Of a DNA stretch of 35,437 nt, positions 9,970-31,962 are shown piece after piece. A program made the position numbers and the translations under genes. The notes beneath the pieces are model-generated. The model searched no databases and was not told where the DNA came from. It was given only the letters and a program-made list of their open reading frames with translations. Numbering within the stretch: the first letter of the stretch is position 1; the number at the start of each line of letters is the position of its first letter. Source of the stretch: a virus; IMG/VR virus record IMGVR_UViG_3300046003_001479, positions 1 through 35,437 of that record; one strand, given 5' to 3'.

Positions 9970-10181
9970 AAAGAGGAAGAAAAAAATACGCCTATGCTGC
10001 AAGCAAGCATGGACACCAACCAATTCAATTTGAGGGCAGTTTAAAGGACTTTGCACGTATGGTTGGAGCAACGGCACACGTGACCGCCTTTCGGTTCTTT
10101 CCATGTCAGGTTAACGGGTGGAATTGCAGCAGAATTCAGTACGTTCAAAAGTGGGTTAAAACAGAAACCGATAACGATTAA
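9966..10181 (+). CDS. Small basic protein, unknown function
   Basis: The 71-residue product begins MKRGRKKYAYAASKHG and continues with a helix-turn pattern (LKDFARMVGATAHVTAFRFF). The basic start suggests nucleic-acid contact, but no family is recognised. It overlaps the DnaA-like gene by 4 bp. Confidence 0.55.
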   Translation: MKRGRKKYAYAASKHGHQPIQFEGSLKDFARMVGATAHVTAFRFFPCQVNGWNCSRIQYVQKWVKTETDND

Positions 10182-10184
10182 ACC

Positions 10185-10502
10185 ATGCACCCAATAATTC
10201 TACTCATTCCAATTTCAGTAGCCGCCATTGCTTCGGTTATTGCCGTAGTTCAAAGGCTGGAGATTGATAGCCTAAAAAGAAAGCAACACGAACTGAGAAA
10301 GGCAAATGATGACTTGACCTTTACGGCAAACGTGGCTAAGTTTGGAAACAGCGAACTAAAGAAGTTACTCGAATCGTCAAACCTAGCCATCAAATCTTTG
10401 GAGTTCAAATGCAAAGAAAGCAGACAAGACTACAAAGACCTTATTGCCATGCCAAGACGTGAACGGGATGCTTTGATAAAGGAATTGAGGGCTAAAAAGT
10501 GA
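10185..10502 (+). CDS. Membrane-anchored coiled-coil protein
   Basis: The 105-residue product has one N-terminal transmembrane segment (about residues 3-22, PIILLIPISVAAIASVIAVV) and a long charged helix rich in Lys, Glu and Leu to the end. It resembles phage i-spanin-like or membrane-tethered coiled-coil proteins in shape only. It lies between DNA-binding genes, away from the endolysin. Confidence 0.55.
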   Translation: MHPIILLIPISVAAIASVIAVVQRLEIDSLKRKQHELRKANDDLTFTANVAKFGNSELKKLLESSNLAIKSLEFKCKESRQDYKDLIAMPRRERDALIKELRAKK

Positions 10503-11205: not shown

Positions 11206-11420
11206 CGGAGGAAGAAATGCAATGGTTGGAGGAACACCGCGAAACGATACTATTGTTTGCAAGTGGTGATTTTTCTGGTCACGTTAGTATTGATGACAGG
11301 GGCATCTATCACAATTTGGCGCAAAGGATTGTAAAGTTTAATTTTATGGTGTGTTGGACTTGTGGTTCAAGTATTCAGCACATAGGTAACTATATTAAAA
11401 ACGGATTACAATGGCGCTAA
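11187..11420 (+). CDS. Protein of unknown function, 77 residues
   Basis: I prefer the ATG at 11187, which gives MAYDVLTEEEMQWLEEHRET and only a 19-bp overlap with the upstream gene. The product has an acidic helical start and a CWTCGSS motif near the C-terminus that might bind a metal. It overlaps the glycosyltransferase gene by 10 bp. No family recognised. Confidence 0.55.
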   Translation: MAYDVLTEEEMQWLEEHRETILLFASGDFSGHVSIDDRGIYHNLAQRIVKFNFMVCWTCGSSIQHIGNYIKNGLQWR

Positions 11421-12175
11421 TTGCAATGGCCGTATTTGATACGGAGGAAAACGGGAGGACTGAATACACTGCCAAAACATTAGAAACACTTTACTTAACG
11501 GTCAACACCCGTAAGCACCGCATTGTAATAGTAGACAATGGCAGTTGCGAAGCAACCCAAAATCTACTAACAAAAACCGCACGCATTGAAGTGATACGCC
11601 TGCATGAGAATATCGGAACTGCTAAGGCGGTCAACAAGGCATGGCAGCTACGCAAAGATGGCGAGCATTGCATTAAGATGGATAACGATGTTGTGATACA
11701 TCAAAGCGGATGGGTAGACCAAATGGAGCGAGCAATTGCAATAGATCCTACTATTGGCATTATCGGGCTAAAGCGAAAAGACTGCTGGGAAGAACCAAGC
11801 CGCACAGACTTTTACCAAAGCAAGCTGCAAATGTTGCCGCACGTGCCAGGCGAACCGTGGCTAGTTGTTGAACGGGTCAATCACGTGATGGGTACGTGTC
11901 AAATGTTTAGCAGCGCACTACTGGACAAAATAGGCTACCTTTACCAGCCGCGTCTGTACGGATTTGATGATGCGCTTGCAGCGGTTCGATGCCAACAGGC
12001 AGGCTACTACTCTTGCTTCTTACCACATATTGAGATTGACCACATTGACACGGGTGCAACGGCATACCAAGGATGGAAAGAGAAACACGCAGGCGAGGAC
12101 ATGGCAGAATTTAACCGATTAAAACACGGTTACATGGATGGTTCAATTAGTATTTATTCAGACGCGACATGGTAG
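11411..12175 (+). CDS. Family 2-like glycosyltransferase
   Basis: The 254-residue product has the GT-A fold marks of family GT2: nucleotide-binding VIVDNGS near residue 41, the metal-binding MDNDV (DxD-like) near residue 90, and the acceptor-side LYGFDDALAAVRCQQAG segment. It would transfer a sugar from a nucleotide donor to a phage or host acceptor. It heads a run of three sugar-related genes ahead of the terminase genes. Confidence 0.85.
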   Translation: MALIAMAVFDTEENGRTEYTAKTLETLYLTVNTRKHRIVIVDNGSCEATQNLLTKTARIEVIRLHENIGTAKAVNKAWQLRKDGEHCIKMDNDVVIHQSGWVDQMERAIAIDPTIGIIGLKRKDCWEEPSRTDFYQSKLQMLPHVPGEPWLVVERVNHVMGTCQMFSSALLDKIGYLYQPRLYGFDDALAAVRCQQAGYYSCFLPHIEIDHIDTGATAYQGWKEKHAGEDMAEFNRLKHGYMDGSISIYSDATW

Positions 12176-12849
12176 TAATTACAAACATTTACAAACCGTT
12201 TGCAGGAACGGATAGAATGATTGCATCGTTTGAGAAAAACGGGCATGAGGTAGCCGTTAACACTATTCCAACAGGCAACGGTGCGATTATGCGCGGCCTA
12301 TACGAATGCTACAAACGGGCGGTAAGCGGTCACGAGCATTTCATTTATGCAGATGCAGCGGATACTATTTGCCAACGCAACTTTGATGGCGAACTACCAA
12401 ACGATTACTTACTATGGTCAACAGAGAAAGCCTGTTATCCTTACGAAGATAGGGCAGCATTATACAAGTTCGCACCAAAAATGAAAAGCCCGTGGAGGTA
12501 CTTAAACAACGGTATATATGGAGGTCGTTTGGATATGGCTATCGAGTTCTTTGAGCGTTACGGATTGCACAAACTCCACGACCATGCAAATGGGCAAGCG
12601 GAGGTTATGGACGCTTACCTACAAGCGCAAAAGGACAATTTTCCTATTAAGTTGGACACGTCATGTAAGCTATTCCAATCAATAGCATTTGACCACGACC
12701 CGAAACGCAACGGACACCCAATCCACGAACACGGCTATGAGGGTATTGACTTCAAAATAGAACAAGGATTAGTTAAAAACGTGCTAACTAAAACAACGCC
12801 AGCGGTTCTGCATGGCAACGGGTTAACGCCAATGGGATGGATACTATGA
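12169..12849 (+). CDS. PLOD-type glycosyltransferase-like protein
   Basis: The 226-residue product has HFIYADAADT, YLNNGIYGG and VLHGNG, an order seen in the glycosyltransferase domain of procollagen lysyl hydroxylases (PLOD family) and related phage and viral enzymes: acidic metal motif, a YLNxG segment, and a C-terminal HGNG. The substrate could be hydroxylated or other protein side chains, or a glycan. It overlaps both neighbours, so it is translated together with the GT2 and acyltransferase genes. Confidence 0.75.
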   Translation: MVVITNIYKPFAGTDRMIASFEKNGHEVAVNTIPTGNGAIMRGLYECYKRAVSGHEHFIYADAADTICQRNFDGELPNDYLLWSTEKACYPYEDRAALYKFAPKMKSPWRYLNNGIYGGRLDMAIEFFERYGLHKLHDHANGQAEVMDAYLQAQKDNFPIKLDTSCKLFQSIAFDHDPKRNGHPIHEHGYEGIDFKIEQGLVKNVLTKTTPAVLHGNGLTPMGWIL

Positions 12850-13439
12850 AAGAAACAGCAATAATAGGAGCAGGCGGCTTTGGCAAGGAAGTAAAGGAAT
12901 GGGCATTAAGTTCGCAGCTTATCCCTTGCCGTCCTTTTTTGTTCTACGTTAGTGACCACATGGCAAAAGCACCTAACAGACCATTGTCGCAGTTAGACTT
13001 TGAAAGGTCAAACGCGGTTATAGCAATAGGCGACCCCAAAGCACGTAAGGCAATAGCCCTATCAATACGACCACAGCAAAAATTTGTAAACGTTATTCAC
13101 GACACGGCTATAATCGCAAGTAAACACGGAGATGGTTGCGTGTTTTGTCCTTACTCCGTTATCACAGTAGACTGCACAATAGGCAACCACGTACAGTTGA
13201 ACCTACACAGCGACATTGGACACGACTGCGTTATAGGTGACTACGTAACGCTTGCACCCAGCGCGAGGGTATCGGGTAGGTGCAACATAGGCGAGGGGGT
13301 TTATATCGGTTCTAATGCAGTAATTCGCGAAGGGGTTAGTATTGCAGCTTGGTCAATTATTGGAGCAAATTCCGTAGTTTTGCATAATATTACGGAACAG
13401 GGTACTTATGTAGGTTCACCAGTTAAGCGAGTAAAATAA
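12846..13439 (+). CDS. NeuD/PglD-like sugar acyltransferase
   Basis: From the ATG at 12846, overlapping the previous TGA, the product is 197 residues. It begins with a Rossmann-like AIIGAGGFGKEV and has a left-handed beta-helix of hexapeptide repeats (VIGDYVTLAPSARVSGRCNI, GEGVYIGSNAVIREGVSI), ending GTYVGSPVKRVK. This is the two-domain plan of NeuD/PglD acetyltransferases, which acetylate amino-sugars or sialic acids. With neighbouring glycosyltransferases it suggests an acetylated sugar. An upstream in-frame ATG (12837) would add three residues. Confidence 0.88.
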   Translation: MKETAIIGAGGFGKEVKEWALSSQLIPCRPFLFYVSDHMAKAPNRPLSQLDFERSNAVIAIGDPKARKAIALSIRPQQKFVNVIHDTAIIASKHGDGCVFCPYSVITVDCTIGNHVQLNLHSDIGHDCVIGDYVTLAPSARVSGRCNIGEGVYIGSNAVIREGVSIAAWSIIGANSVVLHNITEQGTYVGSPVKRVK

Positions 13440-13444
13440 TAGCT

Positions 13445-13885
13445 ATGCACCCAACACGGATATTTAAGCACCCAGACGAGCTACTCGAAGCCTTTAGGGG
13501 TTATGTGGAAAACTTGAAATTAGAAGCGCATAGCTGGCCTAAAGTTCAGTATGTCGGAAAAGATGGGGCGCAAGTAATTGACTATCCTAAAATGCCTTTT
13601 ACGTTTGAAGGGTTCAAAAGATATTGCTATTTTAATCATGGCGATGTTAGTGAGTATTTCCTCAATAGAGAGGGGTATTACAACGACTTTACCACTATCT
13701 GTTCACGTATAAAGGAATGGATACGCGAAGACCAAATAACAGGAGGGCTACTTGGTAACTACAACCCAAGCATAACCCAACGTCTAAACGGGCTATCTGA
13801 AAAGACGGAGGTAAACGCTACCATTGAACAAAGCCCGTTCAAATCATTGCTACTAGATGTTCCAACGGACAACAGCACAAAGTAA
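13445..13885 (+). CDS. terS: Terminase small subunit
   Basis: The 146-residue product matches the gp3-like DNA-packaging (small terminase) pattern: an N-terminal FKHPDELLEAFRGYVENLK, a central FTFEGFKRYCYF... helix pair, and a C-terminal GLLGNYNPSITQRLNGLSEKTEV, the last being typical of these proteins. It recognises phage DNA and starts packaging. It overlaps the large subunit gene by 29 bp, which supports the assignment. Confidence 0.88.
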   Translation: MHPTRIFKHPDELLEAFRGYVENLKLEAHSWPKVQYVGKDGAQVIDYPKMPFTFEGFKRYCYFNHGDVSEYFLNREGYYNDFTTICSRIKEWIREDQITGGLLGNYNPSITQRLNGLSEKTEVNATIEQSPFKSLLLDVPTDNSTK

Positions 13886-15014
13886 AATAGCAGCCTTACG
13901 TAAGCGCGTAAGGGTAGTACAAGGCGGCACAAGTTCGAGCAAGACGTTTACCATAATACCGATGCTAATTACCTATGCCATCGAAAACAAGGGCGTGGAA
14001 ATTAGCGTAGTATCTGAATCAATACCACATTTACGAAGGGGGGCAATACGTGACTTTTTAAAAATTATGGTAGACATTGGCAACTACAAAGAAGCCAACT
14101 GGAATAGGACAACGTTAACCTACGTATTTAACAGCGGTTCGTTTATCGAGTTCTTTAGTGCAGACCAAGGCGATAAGCTAAGAGGTGCAAGACGTGACGT
14201 TCTGTTCGTGAACGAAGCGAACAACATAAGCTGGGAAGCATACCACCAACTAAGCATTAGGACAAGGCGGTTTATCTACATTGATTACAACCCGACCGCT
14301 GCATTTTGGGCGCATACCGAATTGATAGGCAAGCCCGATACCGACTTTGCCATCCTAACCTATAAGGATAACGAAGCGTTAGAGCCTGCCATCGTTAAGG
14401 AAATTGAAGCGGCAAGGGACAAGGGGGCAACGTCAAGCTATTGGGCGAACTGGTGGAGGGTATACGGGCTTGGTGAGGTAGGCAGCTTGCAGGGCGTTGT
14501 GTTCAAAGAATGGCAGCAGGTAGACAAGATGCCCACGACATACAAGTGGAAGGCATACGGGTTAGACTGGGGTTTTACAAACGACCCTACCAGCTTTGTG
14601 GAGGTATGCGAATTTGAGGGCAAGATATATCTAAACGAAATCCTGTACGAAACAAGCCTAACCAATAGCGACATTGCGGCTAAGCTATCTAACTACAAGC
14701 AATGGGAGATTATCGCAGACAGCGCAGAACCTAAAAGCGTGGAGGACTTGCGTAGGCATGGCTTTAGAATTAGAGGGTGCAAAAAGGGAGCGGACAGTAT
14801 TCGCATAGGCTTAGACAAGATGCAACAGCAACCGCTAATGGTTACCAGCAGCAGCCTTAACCTAATCAAAGAACTACGGGGCTACATTTGGCAAATGGAT
14901 AAGACAGGGGCAACTACTAACGACCCGATAGGCTTAGACCATGCTATTGATGCTGCGAGGTATTGCATAATGGAGAAACTAAACGCCAGAAGCGGCACAT
15001 ATTCAGTCAGATGA
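13857..15014 (+). CDS. terL: Terminase large subunit
   Basis: The 385-residue product has the packaging ATPase: Walker A GGTSSSKT (23-30) and Walker B DVLFVNE (114-120, catalytic Glu120). The RNase H-like nuclease follows: LDWGF (Asp237), IIADSAEPKS (Asp288) and DHAIDAARY (Asp361/Asp365). It resembles PBSX-type (Terminase_3) large subunits. It cuts concatemers and pumps DNA into the prohead. The ATG at 13857 places Walker A at the usual distance from the N-terminus. Confidence 0.95.
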   Translation: MFQRTTAQSKIAALRKRVRVVQGGTSSSKTFTIIPMLITYAIENKGVEISVVSESIPHLRRGAIRDFLKIMVDIGNYKEANWNRTTLTYVFNSGSFIEFFSADQGDKLRGARRDVLFVNEANNISWEAYHQLSIRTRRFIYIDYNPTAAFWAHTELIGKPDTDFAILTYKDNEALEPAIVKEIEAARDKGATSSYWANWWRVYGLGEVGSLQGVVFKEWQQVDKMPTTYKWKAYGLDWGFTNDPTSFVEVCEFEGKIYLNEILYETSLTNSDIAAKLSNYKQWEIIADSAEPKSVEDLRRHGFRIRGCKKGADSIRIGLDKMQQQPLMVTSSSLNLIKELRGYIWQMDKTGATTNDPIGLDHAIDAARYCIMEKLNARSGTYSVR

Positions 15015-15955
15015 AAATAGGTTACATAACACATAGTGAAGACGTAGGAGGAGTTGAATACCACAGGCTATACAAACCGCTATCCCTTTTAGGCTTAGAC
15101 GTTACGCGGTGCATTGGAGTAGACAAGGACATACTACTACAGGGGTTTGACGTGATAGTATTTAACCGTTGTATGCCATGCGTTAAGCAGACCGAACTGA
15201 TAAACGACTTAAAGCGCGAAGGGGTGTATGTCATTTGCGACTTAGACGATACTTGGGTACTAGATGGCGGTCACTACCTAACCAAAGAATGGGAAAGGGG
15301 CAATCTTAAATCCCGTATTATTGGGGCGGTTTTAGAATCGGACGAAATTTGGGTAACGCATCAACACCTTGCTAACCAAGTTAAGAGGGTTAACGGCAAC
15401 GTTCACATCATGCCCAATGCTATTGACACGACCGACACGCAATGGCAACCGCACCACAACGGTAACGGGCGCATTGGATGGGTTGGAGGTATTACGCACG
15501 TGAACGACCTGCTCAAAACGATTAAAGCGTGGGGCGAAGTTGAGCCTGTTATTTGCGGCTACCAGGAGAGTGAACCCGAATGGCAAAGGTTAAGCGACAA
15601 ACTGCCTGCTACCTACGTGAAGGGTTTAGACGTATGGAACTACTCCCAACTATACGAGCAGTTTGATATAGCAATTGCACCGTTAACAGGGTCAAAGTTC
15701 AACACGTACAAAAGCAATTTGAAGATACTCGAAGCTGGGGCAAAGGGCAAGCCGATATTTGTGCAGGATATGCACCCGTATACGGATAAGACCGTAGGCG
15801 TTCACCACGTTACCAACTGGACTGATGCAATAGCAGAAGCTAAAGCTATGAGCAGCCAACAGATACAAGAGGAGGGGGCTGCACTACGTGAATATGTCGT
15901 GACAAATTACGACCTTTGCAAAATTAACGAACTAAGATTAAGCCGATTACTATGA
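15011..15955 (+). CDS. GT-B fold glycosyltransferase (GT4-like)
   Basis: From the ATG at 15011, overlapping the terL stop, the product is 314 residues. It has N-terminal MKIGYITHSEDVGGVEYHRL, an ICDLDDTW segment, a VHIMPNAIDT hinge motif, GRIGWVGG, and the donor-site SNLKILEAGAKGKPI (E-x7-E-like loop of GT4 enzymes). It is an inserted sugar gene between packaging and tail genes, and overlaps the next gene by 4 bp, so it is co-translated with virion genes. Confidence 0.87.
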   Translation: MKIGYITHSEDVGGVEYHRLYKPLSLLGLDVTRCIGVDKDILLQGFDVIVFNRCMPCVKQTELINDLKREGVYVICDLDDTWVLDGGHYLTKEWERGNLKSRIIGAVLESDEIWVTHQHLANQVKRVNGNVHIMPNAIDTTDTQWQPHHNGNGRIGWVGGITHVNDLLKTIKAWGEVEPVICGYQESEPEWQRLSDKLPATYVKGLDVWNYSQLYEQFDIAIAPLTGSKFNTYKSNLKILEAGAKGKPIFVQDMHPYTDKTVGVHHVTNWTDAIAEAKAMSSQQIQEEGAALREYVVTNYDLCKINELRLSRLL

Positions 15956-16623
15956 AGATTAGCGTACCTAAAGCATGGAGTGGGGTTACTGTTGGGGAAT
16001 ACCAATCGATTAGGCAGCTACTCAAAGAAGATGCAGACCCGTACTTAACAGAATGCGCTATAATTAGCACGTTGTCCAACACGGATATGGATGACGTTAT
16101 GAAGTTAACGCGAGATGCACACGGTAAGCTAATGACTAAACACCTTGCATTCCTGTTTACAGAGGTGACTGGCAAGCTAAAGAACCGGGTTAAGTTAGCT
16201 GGCAAGTGGTACTACATCGAAACAGACCTTAAGAACATCACAGGAGGGCAGTACATCGACCTTACGCATTTCATGAAAGATGAGAATGTAGACGGCAACC
16301 TACACAACCTTATTGCCTGCCTGTGCGTTCCATTAAAGTGGGGCATTTGGAAACAACCATACAACGGAAAGAATCACAGCGAAGTAGCTAACCATTTGCG
16401 CGGACTGCCAATTACCTACGTGAAACCAATAACCGATTTTTTTTTATCCAGTTACATAGACTTGTTGAAAAATATCGCGGCCTATTTAATGCGAACGGGG
16501 AAGGAACTACAATCAAAGGCAATGGCGCAGCAGACCAATTCATCAACACCTACGGATGGCTTTACTCAATACACGGCCTCACGAACGGCAGGCGTGAACT
16601 TTGGGACTTCTACCTTAACATGA
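15952..16623 (+). CDS. Putative tail assembly chaperone, zero-frame (short) product
   Basis: The 223-residue product has an N-terminal helical domain with ITGGQYIDLTHFMKD and NLHNLIACLCVPLKWG, then after residue 165 a low-complexity Ser/Thr/Ala tail (NSSTPTDGFTQYTASRTAG). T9 at 16437-16445 forms a TTTTTTA slippery heptamer in the correct phase; see the alternative product. Siphovirus tail chaperones (G/GT type) also exist as short and frameshifted long forms. The gene sits at the head of the tail block. Family identity is inferred from position and frameshift, not from a recognised domain. Confidence 0.65.
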   Translation: MKISVPKAWSGVTVGEYQSIRQLLKEDADPYLTECAIISTLSNTDMDDVMKLTRDAHGKLMTKHLAFLFTEVTGKLKNRVKLAGKWYYIETDLKNITGGQYIDLTHFMKDENVDGNLHNLIACLCVPLKWGIWKQPYNGKNHSEVANHLRGLPITYVKPITDFFLSSYIDLLKNIAAYLMRTGKELQSKAMAQQTNSSTPTDGFTQYTASRTAGVNFGTSTLT

Positions 16624-16715
16624 ACGTGATTGAGTTGTTTAATACTATGACATTCTTTAAGCACATGGGTATTTACGAGCGGCAAAACGAAAGGAAGCAT
16701 GGCAAGGGAATTTAG
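15952..16715 (+). CDS. Predicted -1 frameshifted long form of the tail chaperone candidate
   Basis: If ribosomes slip -1 at T TTT TTA (16440-16446), translation continues in a frame open from 16392 to a TAG at 16713-16715, adding 89 residues to the shared 165 (254 total). The extension reads IQLHRLVEKYRGLF..., FINTYGWLYSIHGL and LNMNVIELFNTMTFF, rich in aromatic and hydrophobic residues like real protein. No start codon lies in this frame ahead of the slip site. The extension fills the 75-bp gap after the zero-frame stop and overlaps the next gene by 17 bp, in the style of this genome. Confidence 0.7.
16437..16446 (+). other. Programmed -1 frameshift slippery site
   Basis: Nine consecutive T and an A give zero-frame codons TTT TTT TTA, i.e. 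the X-XXY-YYZ heptamer T-TTT-TTA, one of the most shift-prone sequences known (the HIV-1 site is the same). It is placed where the two frames both remain plausible. A homopolymer length error is the alternative explanation. Confidence 0.7.
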
Positions 16716-18484: not shown

Positions 18485-21450
18485 TAGGCACCGAGGTATT
18501 TGTGGAGGGGTATCGCTTAGACGTAGCCACAGGATTAGACTTTTCGTTTAACTATTCAGTGAGCGATGTACGCGACCCTGACAAGCGGCAAACGGAGTTC
18601 ACCAAAACTATACGATGCGTTGGAACGTCAAACAATAACGTGCTATTTGGCAACTTGTTTGAAGCTGACATAAGCAACCCGTTTGATATTAACACGCCAA
18701 ATGCAGGAGCCAATTTTAACCCCAACAAAAAGGCAAGCGTCCAAGTATTCCACAATAGCCTACCACAGTTAGACGGGTCAATGCAGCTGCGAAATATCAA
18801 AATCACGCAGGGAAAAATTGAATATGAGGTAGTATTCATAGGGCGGTTAATCGACTTGTTTGGAGTGTGGGGTGACCAACAGCTAAACGGGCGAGATGAA
18901 GCTGGCAAACCTATAATTGACCTTCGCGACTTAAACCACGATTTAACAGAAGGCAACCAAAGTGCTACGTGGTATGCGCCTGTTGGTGTTGGCTACGTTT
19001 ACCCTATGATTGACTACGGGCGAAACACTACTTTAGTTACAACATACGGCCAAAGGATATATCCAGTAGTTGACCTTCGACCTGCGCTATACGTTAAGGA
19101 GTTATGGAATAGGATATTTGCCTATGCCGATGCTACCTATGATGGGGCATTCTTTACGGATGGCGTGTTTGAACGTTTGTGTTTGCCGTGGGTTGCTGGC
19201 TTTGAATTAAGCGAAGAAGATATTTACTCTCGAAGTATATACGCAAGGCTATTCTCAACTTCGCCTATTATTTGGGACGTTGATTATACATCTGAATTGT
19301 TTCTTTTTTCCGGATGGAATCCAGTAACACAGACTCCAAGCCCGATGCCACCGGGCACATATCTATCGCATAGTGTTTTAGTATGTGATGAAGAGATAAC
19401 AGACCCATCAAACCAATACACAACAAGCAGCGGTACTACTATAATAAACAAAACAGGAAAATATGTTTTAAGCGGATACTATAAAGCAAAGGCAACTCGC
19501 ATAGCTTACATAGGCCCACTATTTGACAACTACATTAGTTGGGCTGCGGTTTTTGTTAATGGAGTGGTTAGAGAAAACTTAAGTTTTTGCATTATGGATT
19601 TGCCACTAACAATTTTAGAGGGTGGGCCACAAAGCGGAGAATCCATTAACAATTATACAAGTAGCGAATTAGAACTAAATGCAGGGGATTCGGTACAAAT
19701 TCTTATGTACATGCAAGGCTTTCCAGGCATTGAGAATGAGTTTGATTTTCGTTTATTAGATGGAGATTATCACTTAGATGCCGTACATACTGATTTAGCT
19801 TACGGTAATACCGTATACATGAATTTCGGGATGCCAGAGGTTACCATTAAAGACTTCTTTTTGGGCATTCTCAAAATGTTCAATCTGTACATGACCCCAT
19901 CAAAAACAATTGATAGGCATTACACATTTGAAACCCGTGACCAATTCTATAATAACGGGGTTCTGTTAGATTGGACATACAAATTAGACCGTAGCAAAAC
20001 CGTTACCACTACTCCTATGGGTTTGCTTTCGGGTCGTGAGTACGTCTATACATATTCAGAAGATGGGGACTACTACAACCAACGCTACCAAAACAACTAT
20101 GGCAAGGTATACGGTAATAGAACGCTGAATATAGATAACGACTTTGTTCCAGAGCAAAAGGAAACAAGTGTAGTATTTAGTGCCACCCCGTTGGTTAACG
20201 ATGGAATAACCAGCCGCATCATTCCTAAAATATACGATGCCGACATAAGCGAAGGGGCAAAGCAAACCGATGCCAACATTCGTATTTTGTATTATGGCGG
20301 CATGATTACAAGCGAACCAACGTGGGCGCATCAAATAGTTACAGGCACAGTAATAAGCTACGATAACTACCCATACGCTGGGCATTGGGACAACCCGATA
20401 ACGCCAACATTGGATATTAACTTTGGGATGTTGCAAGAGTTGTTTTACCAATCAAACGGTTCAACAGGAACGGTGCAAGTAACCAACAATAACCTATTCA
20501 AAGCCTACCACGAAAGGCAGTTTCTTGAAATAGCAAGCAAGGATAGCAAGCTAATTTCTGCGATGTTCTATTTAACCGAATTGGACATTCAGCAACTTGA
20601 CTTTAGGAATACGATACTAATTGACCAAACCTACTACAGGCTTAACAAGGTAATTGACTACAACCCATTTAAGACGGGGCTAACTAAGGTCGAACTATTT
20701 AAGGCAGGGGATATTACTATTGAAGATGCGCAGGCTGAAAACATAAACGATGCAGGGCAGTTTGGTTTTGGCAAGATGGCTGAGAACGCACCCAAGCAAG
20801 CAAGCAAGCGGCTACTTAACGGCAACCAATACGAACCGTTTCAAGGCAAGGTAATCGGGCGCGAAAACGTAGTAAGTCCTAACGCGTCAGGCTTTTTTGT
20901 GCAAGGTGACAATAACAAGGTAGGCGCAAGTAAGAACGTCACTCTAATTGGCTCAAATAACGTGATAGCTAATGGCGTGGAGAACGTGACCGCTATCGGA
21001 GTAAGCAACCAAAATATTACGCAAAGCAATACGGTAATCAATGGTAGCGGTGGGGTGCAGGTGGCAACGCTTGAATTAACAAGCGCACAGATATTAGCAC
21101 TAAACACAACGCCTGTTTCTTTTGGAATTACCGTTCCATCGGGTTACTATTTACGTGTGTTGGGGTGTGATGGGTATTTAGACTACAATACAATTACCTA
21201 CGCAACTAACGGAAATTTACTAATTAGAACCGTTGGAACTACTGATCCACAAGCTGGATGGACTGCCATTCAATTTCTATTTGCGACAACAGACCGATAT
21301 TCAACAAGCACGTTAACATCGGGAACAAGCATAACGTCAAACCAACTAATAAGCGGTGCAGACGTTGAAGCGTTCGTATCAATAGGTAACCCGTTATTAG
21401 GAAATAGTACCGCTAAACTTTATTTAACCTATATGCTAATTCCTATCTAA
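18481..21450 (+). CDS. Large tail-tip/baseplate protein with C-terminal trimeric-coiled adhesin-like repeats
   Basis: The 989-residue product starts with LDFSFNYSVSDVRDPDKRQTEF, seen in Bacteroidetes phage baseplate or tail-tip proteins. A more AT-rich block (DNA about 19260-19830) encodes an apparent beta-sandwich insert, perhaps carbohydrate-binding. The C-terminal part has YadA-head-like repeats (VTLIGSNNVIANGVENVTAIGVSN) followed by a compact beta domain. It likely combines baseplate structure and receptor contact. It abuts the tape measure gene by one shared base. Confidence 0.7.
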   Translation: MIGTEVFVEGYRLDVATGLDFSFNYSVSDVRDPDKRQTEFTKTIRCVGTSNNNVLFGNLFEADISNPFDINTPNAGANFNPNKKASVQVFHNSLPQLDGSMQLRNIKITQGKIEYEVVFIGRLIDLFGVWGDQQLNGRDEAGKPIIDLRDLNHDLTEGNQSATWYAPVGVGYVYPMIDYGRNTTLVTTYGQRIYPVVDLRPALYVKELWNRIFAYADATYDGAFFTDGVFERLCLPWVAGFELSEEDIYSRSIYARLFSTSPIIWDVDYTSELFLFSGWNPVTQTPSPMPPGTYLSHSVLVCDEEITDPSNQYTTSSGTTIINKTGKYVLSGYYKAKATRIAYIGPLFDNYISWAAVFVNGVVRENLSFCIMDLPLTILEGGPQSGESINNYTSSELELNAGDSVQILMYMQGFPGIENEFDFRLLDGDYHLDAVHTDLAYGNTVYMNFGMPEVTIKDFFLGILKMFNLYMTPSKTIDRHYTFETRDQFYNNGVLLDWTYKLDRSKTVTTTPMGLLSGREYVYTYSEDGDYYNQRYQNNYGKVYGNRTLNIDNDFVPEQKETSVVFSATPLVNDGITSRIIPKIYDADISEGAKQTDANIRILYYGGMITSEPTWAHQIVTGTVISYDNYPYAGHWDNPITPTLDINFGMLQELFYQSNGSTGTVQVTNNNLFKAYHERQFLEIASKDSKLISAMFYLTELDIQQLDFRNTILIDQTYYRLNKVIDYNPFKTGLTKVELFKAGDITIEDAQAENINDAGQFGFGKMAENAPKQASKRLLNGNQYEPFQGKVIGRENVVSPNASGFFVQGDNNKVGASKNVTLIGSNNVIANGVENVTAIGVSNQNITQSNTVINGSGGVQVATLELTSAQILALNTTPVSFGITVPSGYYLRVLGCDGYLDYNTITYATNGNLLIRTVGTTDPQAGWTAIQFLFATTDRYSTSTLTSGTSITSNQLISGADVEAFVSIGNPLLGNSTAKLYLTYMLIPI

Positions 21451-23339
21451 TGGCCGAAACTAAAACAATAATTATTGACTTACAATTAGACAGCTCGGAG
21501 GTAAAGAGCGAGTTTAAGGTAGTTGATAAGCAGCTAGATGAAACGAAAGACCGAGTAAAAAAGCTAAAGACCGAAACGGATAAGACTTCGCAGTCTATGA
21601 GCCAAGGCTTTACAGCAGGCGCAGGCGCAGCGGCTTTAATACCGGGCCCGATTGGACAAGCGGCAGCGGCAGTAGGTGGGTTAAAAACTGCTTTTGATGC
21701 AGTAAAGGCTTCACTTGTTGGCGTTCGCATTGCATTGGTTGCTACGGGAATAGGTGCGTTTGTGGTAATTGTTGGAACGTTGGTAGCCTACTTTATGAAT
21801 ACCGAAAAGGGAGCGCAGTCTTTACGTGTGGCAATGGCTGGGCTTGGTGCTGTTGTAAGCAATTTAGTAGACGGATGGCTTGGGTTTGTTAAGGCCGTTG
21901 GTTCCTTTTTAACCCTAGACTTCAAAGGTGGCATTGATAACATCAAACAATCCTTTAATTCATTCACCGTTGGATTAGTTGAAAATACAGCAGCAGCCGT
22001 AAATAATGCAAAAGCCTTAAATGATATTGGAGTTGCTGAAGGTAAATTAAATGAAACAAGGGCAAAGTCTAATTTAAAAATAACCGAAGCGCGACTAATT
22101 GCGGACGATTTAACCAAGTCTACTGAAGAACGAATTGAAGCCATTAAACGTGCTGCTGAATTTGAAGAAAAGGTTGCTGCGCAGGAGTTAAAAATTGCCG
22201 AACAAAAAGCTAAAATATTAGCTGCCAATGTAGCAGCGCAAGTAGACGCTGGAGAAGAAGAAAAAAGGATTGCAAGCGAAGCTGCTGTTCGTGTTTACCA
22301 ACTTCAAAATGAAGGATTAAAAAGAGAAAAGAGTCTTAATTCTGAAATACAAGGATTAAAAAATGAACAGGAAGGCAAGGATAGGGAACGGGATGCATCG
22401 AGGTTAGCAAAAATAAAAGAACGGAATGATGCTGAACTAGCACTAGCTAAAAAACTAGAAGAAGAAAAAGCGGCTATAGCAGAAAGTAATTATAAAATAG
22501 CTGAAAAGCAAGCTGAAAACGCGGTTAAAATTGCTGAATATACAGCAGAAAGGTTAGCTATTACAGAAGAAGAAGAATTAAAGCTTAAAATACAAAGGGC
22601 TTTAGATGCTGAAAAATTAAAGTTTCAAGCGGTAAATGAGGCCATAATGCAACAGCAAGGAGACAGGCAGTTGATACTTGATGAAGCAGAAGCAGCGGAG
22701 GAGTTATACCTACGTGAGCGAATGATTATAAAGGGTGAAATTGAAACCGAGTATTATGCAAAAAAGCTAGCTGAAGCAACTAAAAATGCAGATGATATAG
22801 CAGCAGCAGAAAAAGCAGCGGCAGAAAAGTCATTAGCAGCAACACAAAAGATTAACGCGGCAAGGATAAGCGCGGCAACTAACGTAGCAGGGGCATTGGG
22901 TGCAATTGGTCGCTTAATGCAACAACAAGGGCAAGAAAACACGGCAGCAGCTAAAACGTTGGCAGTTGCTGAAATTGCCATAAGTACAGCAGTAGCGATT
23001 GCAGGGGCGATAAAAACAGCAACTCAAGGAAGCGCAACCCCGTGGGATATGATAGCAGGCATTGCAGCAGGCATTGCAGCCGTAGTTGCTGGCATAGCTT
23101 CGGCAACGGCTATACTTGACACAGCAGACGTTCCTGGCCCAAGCGCGGCAGGTGCAATGAGTTCAGTTGCCGCATCAGCCCCAACCATAACCCCCGTTAC
23201 AACTAACACGACCCAATTAGGCAACACGCAGCAGGCAGAACTACAACCAGTGCAAGCCTACGTAGTTGAAACGCAGATAACAGGCTCACAAACAAACATT
23301 AACCAAATTGAATCACAGTCCACTTTCGGAGGTGGGTAA
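21450..23339 (+). CDS. Tape measure protein
   Basis: The 629-residue product has an N-terminal helical part, an Ala/Gly-rich hydrophobic segment (GAGAAALIPGPIGQAAAAVGG), a transmembrane-like stretch (VRIALVATGIGAFVVIVGTLVAYFM cut short here, about residues 93-117), then a long Lys/Glu/Ala coiled coil to about residue 430, and a second Ala/Gly-rich hydrophobic end. This is the standard tape-measure layout. At about 0.15 nm per residue the tail would be roughly 94 nm, which suggests a siphovirus with a medium tail. Confidence 0.88.
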   Translation: MAETKTIIIDLQLDSSEVKSEFKVVDKQLDETKDRVKKLKTETDKTSQSMSQGFTAGAGAAALIPGPIGQAAAAVGGLKTAFDAVKASLVGVRIALVATGIGAFVVIVGTLVAYFMNTEKGAQSLRVAMAGLGAVVSNLVDGWLGFVKAVGSFLTLDFKGGIDNIKQSFNSFTVGLVENTAAAVNNAKALNDIGVAEGKLNETRAKSNLKITEARLIADDLTKSTEERIEAIKRAAEFEEKVAAQELKIAEQKAKILAANVAAQVDAGEEEKRIASEAAVRVYQLQNEGLKREKSLNSEIQGLKNEQEGKDRERDASRLAKIKERNDAELALAKKLEEEKAAIAESNYKIAEKQAENAVKIAEYTAERLAITEEEELKLKIQRALDAEKLKFQAVNEAIMQQQGDRQLILDEAEAAEELYLRERMIIKGEIETEYYAKKLAEATKNADDIAAAEKAAAEKSLAATQKINAARISAATNVAGALGAIGRLMQQQGQENTAAAKTLAVAEIAISTAVAIAGAIKTATQGSATPWDMIAGIAAGIAAVVAGIASATAILDTADVPGPSAAGAMSSVAASAPTITPVTTNTTQLGNTQQAELQPVQAYVVETQITGSQTNINQIESQSTFGGG

Positions 23340-26153: not shown

Positions 26154-26183
26154 AAGCCCTGCTATTAGTGGGGCTTTTTTTTT
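26154..26183 (+). terminator. Intrinsic terminator after the tube-like gene
   Basis: AAGCCC (26154-26159) pairs with GGGCTT (26171-26176) around an 11-nt loop and runs into nine T residues (26175-26183). Its stem-loop resembles the terminator at 4378-4410. Confidence 0.9.
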
Positions 26184-29526: not shown

Positions 29527-31962
29527 GTGCTACTAACCCTCAACCAAGTAATAAGCCAAATAACGACACTTGCCGCGGCTCACAACCAAATAGCGGCAAG
29601 CGGAGTAGGTGACTTTGCGGAGTGGCAAGCGGAGGAGCGAAACTACCCTTTGCTTTGGGTGTTCCACGAAACCACAAGCGTAGGCAACCGCGAGCTGGTT
29701 TTTTCAATTCGCCTTATTTGCGCGGATAGGGTAATTGTAGGCGAGGAGGGTGAGGACACGGACGGCATGGAGCAAGAGGTATTGAGCGACACGATGCTTA
29801 TCCTTTTAGACTTCCTTAGCTACTTTATGCAACAGCACAGCCAAAGCTATACAGTTGTGCCATCTGCTACTATTGACCCTTACACGGAAAGGCTGAATGA
29901 TAGGTTAGCAATGAACTCTACCATCATTCAGATACGGCAACCGTTCACGTGGGATGCGTGCCAAATCCCACAAACAGGCGCAACAATCCCACCTAGTGTA
30001 GATGGGTTAACGCTTTACGATTTTTGCGACCCTTCCGTAATTGCACGCTTGACACCTGCCCAAGTGGTGTGTTTGGAAGCTGAGTATGGCGTTACCTGCT
30101 TAGATGGTACTGTAACTCAAAACGGTTCGCCTTTCTTTACGGTTGCATCTGGTGCAACATATCCACTAATTACCAAATTAGACGGGACAAATAACGCTGG
30201 CTCGTTTAATTCTGGAACTAAAACATTAAGTTTTACAAGCAACTCATCCAATCTACAAATTAACGGGGCACAATCGGAGATTATACCAGGCAACTCCACG
30301 TTTAACCTGTTGGCGAAATTGGATGGCGTGGCTGGTGGAGTGTATAACGCTGGACTTGACACGCTAAATTTCACCACAACTCCTGCGATTCTGCAAAGGA
30401 ACGCAATACAAATTAAGACGTTAGCCAATGCGTCTACGTTTAACTTAATCACAAAGCTGGACGGGGCTGCAAACAACGGCACATGGGATGGCGTAGACAC
30501 TTTAGACTTCACCTCCGCTGCCTGTTCACCCGTTACGTTTCAGATTAACGCGGTTAACAAGGAATCCTTGTCGAGTGGATCTACGTTTAACCTTATCACA
30601 AAGCTGGACGGGGCGGTTAATTCGGGTAGTTACGATGCGCCTACTGACACGCTAAGCTTTACAAGTGCGGCCTGTTCACCCGTAGCCCTACAAATTAACG
30701 GAACACCACAGGAAAGCATCGCAGCTGGGGCAACCTTCAATCTTATCGCCACATTGGATGGCGTGGCTGGGGGTACTTACACGCCAGCCACCGACACGCT
30801 TGCGTTCACCTCAAATAGTGGATGGATTAGACCCTCTTTTTGGCCAGCATTGCCAACGATAACCGCGGCATATCAGGGTGGAAATATACTTGTGCAAGTA
30901 TATGAGAATAGATTAAACAGATTTACGCTGCAAATCAATAATAGCACAGTAAGCTGGGGCGATGGTACTACAACCGCGCCAAGTGGAGGTGTCAGAACTA
31001 AAACATATACCTACTCTACATTATCAGGAACGGTTTATGTAGATGCGTTAACAGGTGAGAATTACAAATTTGCCATAATTAACATTGTCAATACTGCTGG
31101 GAATATAACTTTTGCATACTTTAGTGTTATGCCAGCAACTTCACCTTTAAGGGCTGCGCCTTTTGCTTTGGATTGGGATTTGTCGCTACCATTTTCAGTT
31201 GACACTTATATTCAGTCGGGCACAACTAACATAAACCAAAATTATATCAAACAATTAAAATTGTGGGCTATTGGGGGGGGCACTTTAATTATACAACATT
31301 TACGCAGCATTGAATCGCTTCAATTACCAGCAAGTTTTCCGTCTATGTCTTTGTCGGGAACTTTTAGGTCTACTGGCTCGGTTATCCTAGGTAATTTAAA
31401 CTTTGGATTGGCAACTAGCTTGCAACAGGCTTTTATTACTTCTACTATAAAAAGCATTGGCAATATCAGCGGAAGTTCAATTACATCTATGTCAGAAGCG
31501 TTTTCCGACAACCCATCTCTTGAGTCTGTTGGAACTATAACGCTTCCGTCTTGTGCGAATTTTATTTATGTTTTTTCTGGCAATAACAATTTAAAATCAG
31601 TTGGGTTAATTACGGCAAATTCAATTACGGATGTTCAATTTTGTTTTGCAAACTGTTTGAGCCTAAATGCAATAAGATTTGCAAACTGCGCACTAATAAC
31701 AAGCACTACCAATATGCTCTTGAATTGTTATTCTTTGCAAGTGTTGGATATGCCTAACCTAACAAGGGGCGTAAATTTCACGAACACCGCAATAGGTAAC
31801 TACGGCATGAATATCTTTGCCAACGGAATAGGTACAGCAAGCGGTGCGCAAACCATAACAATTACAGGAACTCCATTTGGGGCATTGGTTACGGCAGCAG
31901 ATGCAACGGCATTAGCTATACGAGCGGTCATGACAGGCAAAGGTTACACAATAGCAAACTAA
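29527..31962 (+). CDS. Fused tail-completion domain, repeat stalk and LRR-like adhesin
   Basis: The 811-residue product starts at GTG. Residues 1 to about 150 resemble a tail-completion-like protein of Bacteroidetes phages (YPLLWVFHE, DTMLILLDFLSYF, STIIQIRQPF). Residues about 205-430 hold five repeats of about 48 residues with the core FNLITKLDG...DTLSFTS. The C-terminal third has Leu/Ile-rich repeats like BspA-type LRR (SLESVGTITLPSCANF, LKSVGLITANSITDV). It would be a receptor-binding fibre built onto a neck or tail protein. The LRR part is more AT-rich, pointing to module exchange. Confidence 0.75.
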   Translation: MLLTLNQVISQITTLAAAHNQIAASGVGDFAEWQAEERNYPLLWVFHETTSVGNRELVFSIRLICADRVIVGEEGEDTDGMEQEVLSDTMLILLDFLSYFMQQHSQSYTVVPSATIDPYTERLNDRLAMNSTIIQIRQPFTWDACQIPQTGATIPPSVDGLTLYDFCDPSVIARLTPAQVVCLEAEYGVTCLDGTVTQNGSPFFTVASGATYPLITKLDGTNNAGSFNSGTKTLSFTSNSSNLQINGAQSEIIPGNSTFNLLAKLDGVAGGVYNAGLDTLNFTTTPAILQRNAIQIKTLANASTFNLITKLDGAANNGTWDGVDTLDFTSAACSPVTFQINAVNKESLSSGSTFNLITKLDGAVNSGSYDAPTDTLSFTSAACSPVALQINGTPQESIAAGATFNLIATLDGVAGGTYTPATDTLAFTSNSGWIRPSFWPALPTITAAYQGGNILVQVYENRLNRFTLQINNSTVSWGDGTTTAPSGGVRTKTYTYSTLSGTVYVDALTGENYKFAIINIVNTAGNITFAYFSVMPATSPLRAAPFALDWDLSLPFSVDTYIQSGTTNINQNYIKQLKLWAIGGGTLIIQHLRSIESLQLPASFPSMSLSGTFRSTGSVILGNLNFGLATSLQQAFITSTIKSIGNISGSSITSMSEAFSDNPSLESVGTITLPSCANFIYVFSGNNNLKSVGLITANSITDVQFCFANCLSLNAIRFANCALITSTTNMLLNCYSLQVLDMPNLTRGVNFTNTAIGNYGMNIFANGIGTASGAQTITITGTPFGALVTAADATALAIRAVMTGKGYTIAN
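30150..30815 (+). repeat. Five coding repeats in the adhesin stalk
   Basis: Five units of about 135-150 bp each encode a variant of TFNLITKLDG followed by a turn and DTLxFTS. The LDG codons recur near 30180, 30319, 30454, 30604 and 30754. Units 3 and 4 are most alike at DNA level, so recent duplication or gene conversion is likely. Confidence 0.8.

Follow-up and report, generated by a model that had tools for sequence, protein, structure and literature searches.

Gene layout in the window

The DNA analysed here, called the window throughout, comes from IMG/VR and spans the 35,437 bp of one virus record. The features that bear on this study are listed in Table 1. The central one is an open reading frame (ORF) of 223 codons, a candidate tail assembly chaperone gene, which contains a run of nine T's (T9). 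The codons over the run in the zero frame are GAT TTT TTT TTA, and two heptamers are in phase at the same T9: T TTT TTA, and T TTT TTT at 16437-16443. An earlier note on this DNA had proposed a programmed -1 frameshift on T TTT TTA. When the window was rechecked, the coordinates that it gave for the zero frame, the correct phase of the heptamer in the zero-frame reading and the 17-nt overlap of the -1 frame with the next ORF were all reproduced. The -1 frame was likewise open from 16392 to 16715, with 89 codons past the slip and no usable start; that is, it holds no ORF of at least 50 amino acids beginning with ATG, GTG or TTG. The plus strand of the window has only one other T9, at 26175, which is intergenic and terminator-like.

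Table 1. Features of the window around the candidate chaperone gene.
Feature	Coordinates	Strand	Remarks
Terminase large subunit (TerL), upstream	13857..15014	+	PHROG terminase, E 7.3e-32; Pfam Terminase_3C
Zero-frame ORF, 223 aa; predicted short product (candidate tail assembly chaperone)	15952..16623	+	Homologues along whole length
T9, putative slip site	16437..16445	+	Exactly T9 in 164/166 unique junctions and in 39/40 of the held-out lineage
In-phase heptamer T TTT TTA	16440..16446	+	Relatives in other codon phases have T TTT TTT only
-1 frame extension past the slip, 89 residues and stop; C-terminal domain of predicted long product	16446..16715	+	Domain conserved in relatives; coding substitution pattern
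Stretch coded in both frames	16446..16623	+	Zero-frame codon positions 1/2/3 carry 114/229/229 substitutions; stop-free in both frames in 47 pairs
Next ORF, 166 aa	16699..17199	+	17-nt overlap with -1 frame; adjacency kept in relatives
Neighbour gene, 420 aa	17222..18484	+	Served as query to reach distant relatives
629-aa ORF, candidate tape measure protein	21450..23339	+	Weak match to PHROG of unknown function

Several other observations were made in the window. Sugar genes are interspersed among the structural genes in two stretches, 11411-13439 and 14963-15955. They comprise two glycosyltransferase-like genes with PHROG matches, of which one separates TerL from the chaperone candidate, and an ORF at 12837-13439 that was named acyltransferase-like by eye. 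A run of eight G's (31273-31280) inside a repetitive, fibre-like ORF of 811 aa (29527-31962) might vary in length. The Bacteroidota-type promoter pattern occurs 5 times in the window against 2.46 expected, a count equalled or exceeded in 11 of 100 shuffles and hence not above chance.

Conservation of the T run and of both reading frames

To gather relatives, we scanned viral contigs seven times, the queries being members either of the gene or of the syntenic 420-aa neighbour, and the loci recovered reach down to about 20% identity. Profiles of the N part and the C part of the predicted long product were built from 25 seeds and run on 322 loci. Both parts were matched in 296 of these, and the second part lay in the -1 frame in 294 of the 296. 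The 26 loci that did not give both matches, not all of which were inspected, were left out of the counts.

Removal of duplicate junctions reduced the 296 loci to 166, of which 164 have exactly nine T's. One of the two exceptions has eight T's (L246) beside a near-twin with nine (L245); in the other, the junction has been lost by deletion (L293), and its near-twin is normal (L294). The T9 of the window is backed by many separate contigs with the same run, and its recurrence together with both frames is beyond chance. One locus was left out of an earlier set as its ambiguous sequence breaks the frame (L169), and the remaining 96 of 96 loci of that set had T9. The pair was not found in 9 of the 37 loci of a narrower scan, mostly through missing upstream sequence, nor in 8 loci of a further scan; three of the loci that were pairless in narrower scans (L238, L270 and L181) were later matched by the profiles with the second part in the -1 frame. 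The proteins form 77, 50, 33 and 26 clusters at 95, 70, 50 and 40% identity, respectively. When 52 zero-frame proteins were aligned, the mean column identity was 29%, and the only invariant columns were the two Phe residues encoded by the run.

The pattern of substitutions was then compared in 47 pairs of relatives, every sequence being used once. Upstream of the run, substitutions fell 478/190/1514 on codon positions 1/2/3. On entering the overlap, the rate decreased from 0.155 to 0.101 per nucleotide and the distribution became 114/229/229 in zero-frame numbering; that is, the peaks stand where either frame is at its third position, and the minimum is the position at which both frames are constrained. 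Past the zero-frame stop, the counts were 143/65/469 in the numbering of the -1 frame. The overlaps of these pairs contained no stop in the zero or the -1 frame and 502 stops in the third frame. Two of the findings that the earlier note had named as speaking against it were not encountered: none of the 296 loci in which both profiles matched has fused frames without a slip site, and coding constraint is present in the -1 frame. From this comparative evidence we regard it as well established that this is a real two-product gene, in which each of the two frames codes for protein and is conserved.

When predicted viral proteins were searched by structure, the cultured Nonlabens phage P12024S came up. 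Its genome was not among the seeds of the profiles and therefore served as a held-out test. The profiles match this genome with E 4.7e-13 for the N part and E 2e-6 for the C part, and its junction, CTT TTT TTT TAT, is again T9. The last scan recovered 63 loci of this lineage; all 63 match the profile of the N part, and 61 match that of the C part. When phage P12024L was added, T9 was present in 63 of 64 loci and in 39 of 40 unique junctions; the sole exception (L339) has ten T's and retains the zero frame. Over both sets, 203 of 206 unique junctions are T9. A search of INPHARED with the P12024S protein recovers P12024S and P12024L, and the window protein gave no matches there, nor did six further queries from the family or its neighbours. 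The two cultured phages (Inhavirus) thus belong to the same family as the gene in the window, as both parts are matched by the profiles and the run is T9. Their records annotate two separate hypothetical proteins and do not mention a frameshift, and therefore the predicted long protein has been missed.

The bases past the run are near-fixed in this lineage (L328-L391): almost all loci have TAT CAT TTA, which reads YHL in the zero frame and LSF in the -1 frame. Dual coding may suffice for this, and an extra signal is possible.

The hosts of the cultured members are Persicivirga/Nonlabens. One relative sits on a contig of a Chitinophagaceae metagenome-assembled genome, and 3 of 395 whole genomes of the phylum to which the latter belongs match the neighbour-gene family.

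Flavobacterium phage 6H (R9VW65, L326), a structural match, was considered as a further member. Neither profile matches its genome; the corresponding place has six T's followed by C, an immediate -1 stop and no T9, and the phage was left out of all counts. Next comes, on the minus strand of the record (10048-10351), a stretch without annotation in which one frame is open and protein-like. Either recoding or a sequence error is possible at this site, the latter because the record contains an N.

The run does not keep one codon phase. Its first T is the second base of a codon in 116 junctions, the third base in 47 and the first base in a single one, and the codons that flank the two Phe codons co-vary, with the result that the total of T's stays at nine. 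The tree implies only about 2-3 switches of codon phase, and the covariation of the flanking codons therefore represents few independent events. A stronger argument is that runs of 7, 8, 10 or 11 T's are almost never seen across deeply separated lineages. Moreover, the silent sites that a minimal heptamer would leave free are always T, and the background products for these T's are 10^-6.7 in 16 phase-2 clusters and 10^-5.6 in 33 phase-1 clusters when clusters are treated as independent. Thus, the run keeps its length of nine while its codon phase differs.

We compared this with 285 other ORFs of the representative contigs. Long runs are avoided in this other coding sequence: runs of at least nine A's were absent against 17.9 expected, and runs of at least nine T's were absent against 2.0 expected, a difference that is weak on its own. 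Phe-Phe was written TTT TTT in 51 of 203 cases. Runs of seven T's were also rarer than expected in these ORFs (17 against 46.4).

Identity of the gene as a candidate tail chaperone

We think it quite likely that the gene encodes a tail chaperone, on the basis of context, two-product architecture and weak homology. The order TerL, (glycosyltransferase), chaperone candidate, gene of about 170 aa and gene of about 400 aa recurs in four loci (L001, L021, L068 and L171), and the gene order around the candidate is common to the relatives. A short product together with a longer one whose C-terminal domain comes from the -1 frame is the architecture of the G/GT pair, and it is predicted here from the sequence. 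Chaperones of this type bind the proteins of the tape measure and the tail tube and are not part of the virion. A G/GT chaperone gene usually directly precedes the tape measure gene, although this is not absolute. In the window the candidate tape measure ORF starts 4.7 kb downstream, at 21450.

AlphaFold modelled the zero-frame protein with a mean pLDDT of 82. When its structure was compared with known ones, the HK97 tail assembly chaperone (2OB9) was second in the list with a Z of 3.4, which is far below significance; the superposition covers 61 residues of the N part at 3.1 A with 10% identity. No match was obtained by a profile search of PDB sequences or by Foldseek against the PDB at E 0.001, and a structure comparison of the C domain, in which 8 chains were aligned, gave no useful match. 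The family Phage_TAC_7 was matched in 2 of 52 members with E 0.0016, below the family cut-off, and the window protein itself matched no Pfam or PHROG family. The reading as a tail chaperone given in the earlier note is therefore plausible by the recurrent synteny and the weak matches to 2OB9 and Phage_TAC_7, but it is not proven by them.

Proposed slippage on the run and comparison with known systems

That the run is fixed at nine in very distant phages suggests that the RNA polymerase, and not the ribosome, slips on it. We favour slippage of the polymerase on T9 over ribosomal -1 frameshifting, because the ribosome could slip on six or seven T's and would have no need of nine. Conserved runs of nine A's or T's at overlapping ORFs have been described as a pointer to transcriptional slippage (PMC1088944), and the present T9 is such a conserved homopolymer at a frame transition. 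In E. coli, slippage of the polymerase is reported to need a T run of at least seven, with T favoured over A (PMC6260861). Of the claims of the earlier note, a programmed short and long product through the -1 frame is strongly supported, but T TTT TTA is not the best supported slip signal. Both frames are conserved in the relatives and T9 is kept, whereas T TTT TTR is absent from most of them; T TTT TTA was rejected as a ribosomal slip signal conserved in the family, because the T9 of relatives sits in other codon phases.

The two products may be made as follows. Most mRNAs would keep U9 and give the short protein of 223 aa. At times the polymerase would realign on the T9 of the coding strand and insert one U, and ordinary ribosomes would translate such U10 mRNAs into the long protein, which would consist of the first approximately 164 residues and the 89-residue domain of the -1 frame. 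If one U were lost instead, translation would end early. In the +1 frame the median distance from the run to a stop is 6 codons, and in the window it is 3 codons, so that this product would be roughly the short form. The pair is most likely gpG/gpGT-like: the shared part would bind the tape measure protein, and the tail tube protein would be recruited by the domain that only the long, less abundant form has. We infer both the transcriptional nature of the slip and the role in tail assembly, and consider it probable that polymerase slippage on T9, yielding such a pair, is the explanation of this locus. We also propose that selection acts on the length of the run and not on its codon phase, because the length would set the slippage rate and hence the ratio of short to long product.

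The most serious alternative is programmed -1 ribosomal frameshifting, as in lambda G/GT, on T TTT TTT or T TTT TTR within the T9. Known tail chaperones, including the lambda type, are described as using ribosomal frameshifting (PMC5009743), and frameshifting of 6-7% has been measured for two HK97-type genes (PMC3711429). An in-phase heptamer of the form X XXY YYZ lies inside the T9 of the window and of its relatives, in all three codon phases. This explanation would account for the number nine by dual coding together with the best slipping by overlapping heptamers, and the -1 frame's own amino acids do fix part of the run. The first T of the phase-2 lineages had been considered as a clean discriminator between the mechanisms; this is weakened, because the same T is also the first base of the second in-phase heptamer, T TTT TTT. 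The T8 of L246 and the T10 of L339 further count against a strict nine. However, six or seven T's would be enough for the ribosome, and the other lengths from 7 to 11 are almost never seen. The silent sites beyond a minimal heptamer also remain T. Moreover, no structural stimulator was found: RNA structure beside the run, taken as pseudoknot-free folds, gave no signal, with a mean z near 0, in 50 representatives compared with mononucleotide shuffles. A conserved stimulatory structure 3' of the slip site is common in ribosomal frameshifting, although some sites do without one. We therefore regard ribosomal frameshifting as possible but rather unlikely here.

Two further explanations can be considered. 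The T9 might be a switch of replication slippage (phase variation), in which a population mixed of T9 and T10 genomes yields both proteins, and the single T8 (L246, beside its T9 near-twin) and the single T10 (L339) would fit it. Such a switch should leave T8 and T10 frequently, but 203 of 206 unique junctions are T9, and the T10 arose by substitution with the zero frame kept, not by an indel; this makes the switch very improbable. Homopolymers are error-prone in general, but a sequencing error or a decayed gene is scarcely credible when 294 of 296 loci, as well as two cultured isolates, have the same layout and both frames are under coding constraint.

Returning to slippage of the polymerase, we are inclined to extend it to the tailed phages of a large group in which the cultured members have Flavobacteriia as hosts. 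In this group the chaperone pair may be made by polymerase slippage on an invariant T9, not by a ribosomal frameshift as in lambda-type phages, with the length of nine as a selected dial of the ratio of short to long product. Ribosomal recoding has a textbook example in the frameshifting of tail chaperones. If the proposal is true, one conserved requirement for two products is served by two different machines. The family would also supply numerous natural slip sites with a single fixed length, and slippage of the polymerase could be measured directly in the cultured phages P12024S and P12024L. Searches of the open-access literature gave no account of a phage tail chaperone made by transcriptional slippage and no earlier report of conservation of the T9 length.

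The present gene resembles lambda gpG/gpGT (PMC5009743) in that it has a short and a predicted long product, a C-terminal domain in the -1 frame and a place in the structural gene region. No significant sequence homology to lambda gpG/gpGT was found. Unlike in lambda, a T9 of fixed length stands at the slip, and the candidate tape measure gene is not adjacent. The run of Shigella mxiE consists of nine T's. In mxiE (a U run) and in Thermus dnaX (nine A's), transcriptional slippage on the run is described as leading to two products, and in mxiE the inserted nucleotide joins two overlapping ORFs (PMC1088944). These two are bacterial genes, whereas the gene studied here is a candidate phage tail gene whose run is kept throughout a phage group.
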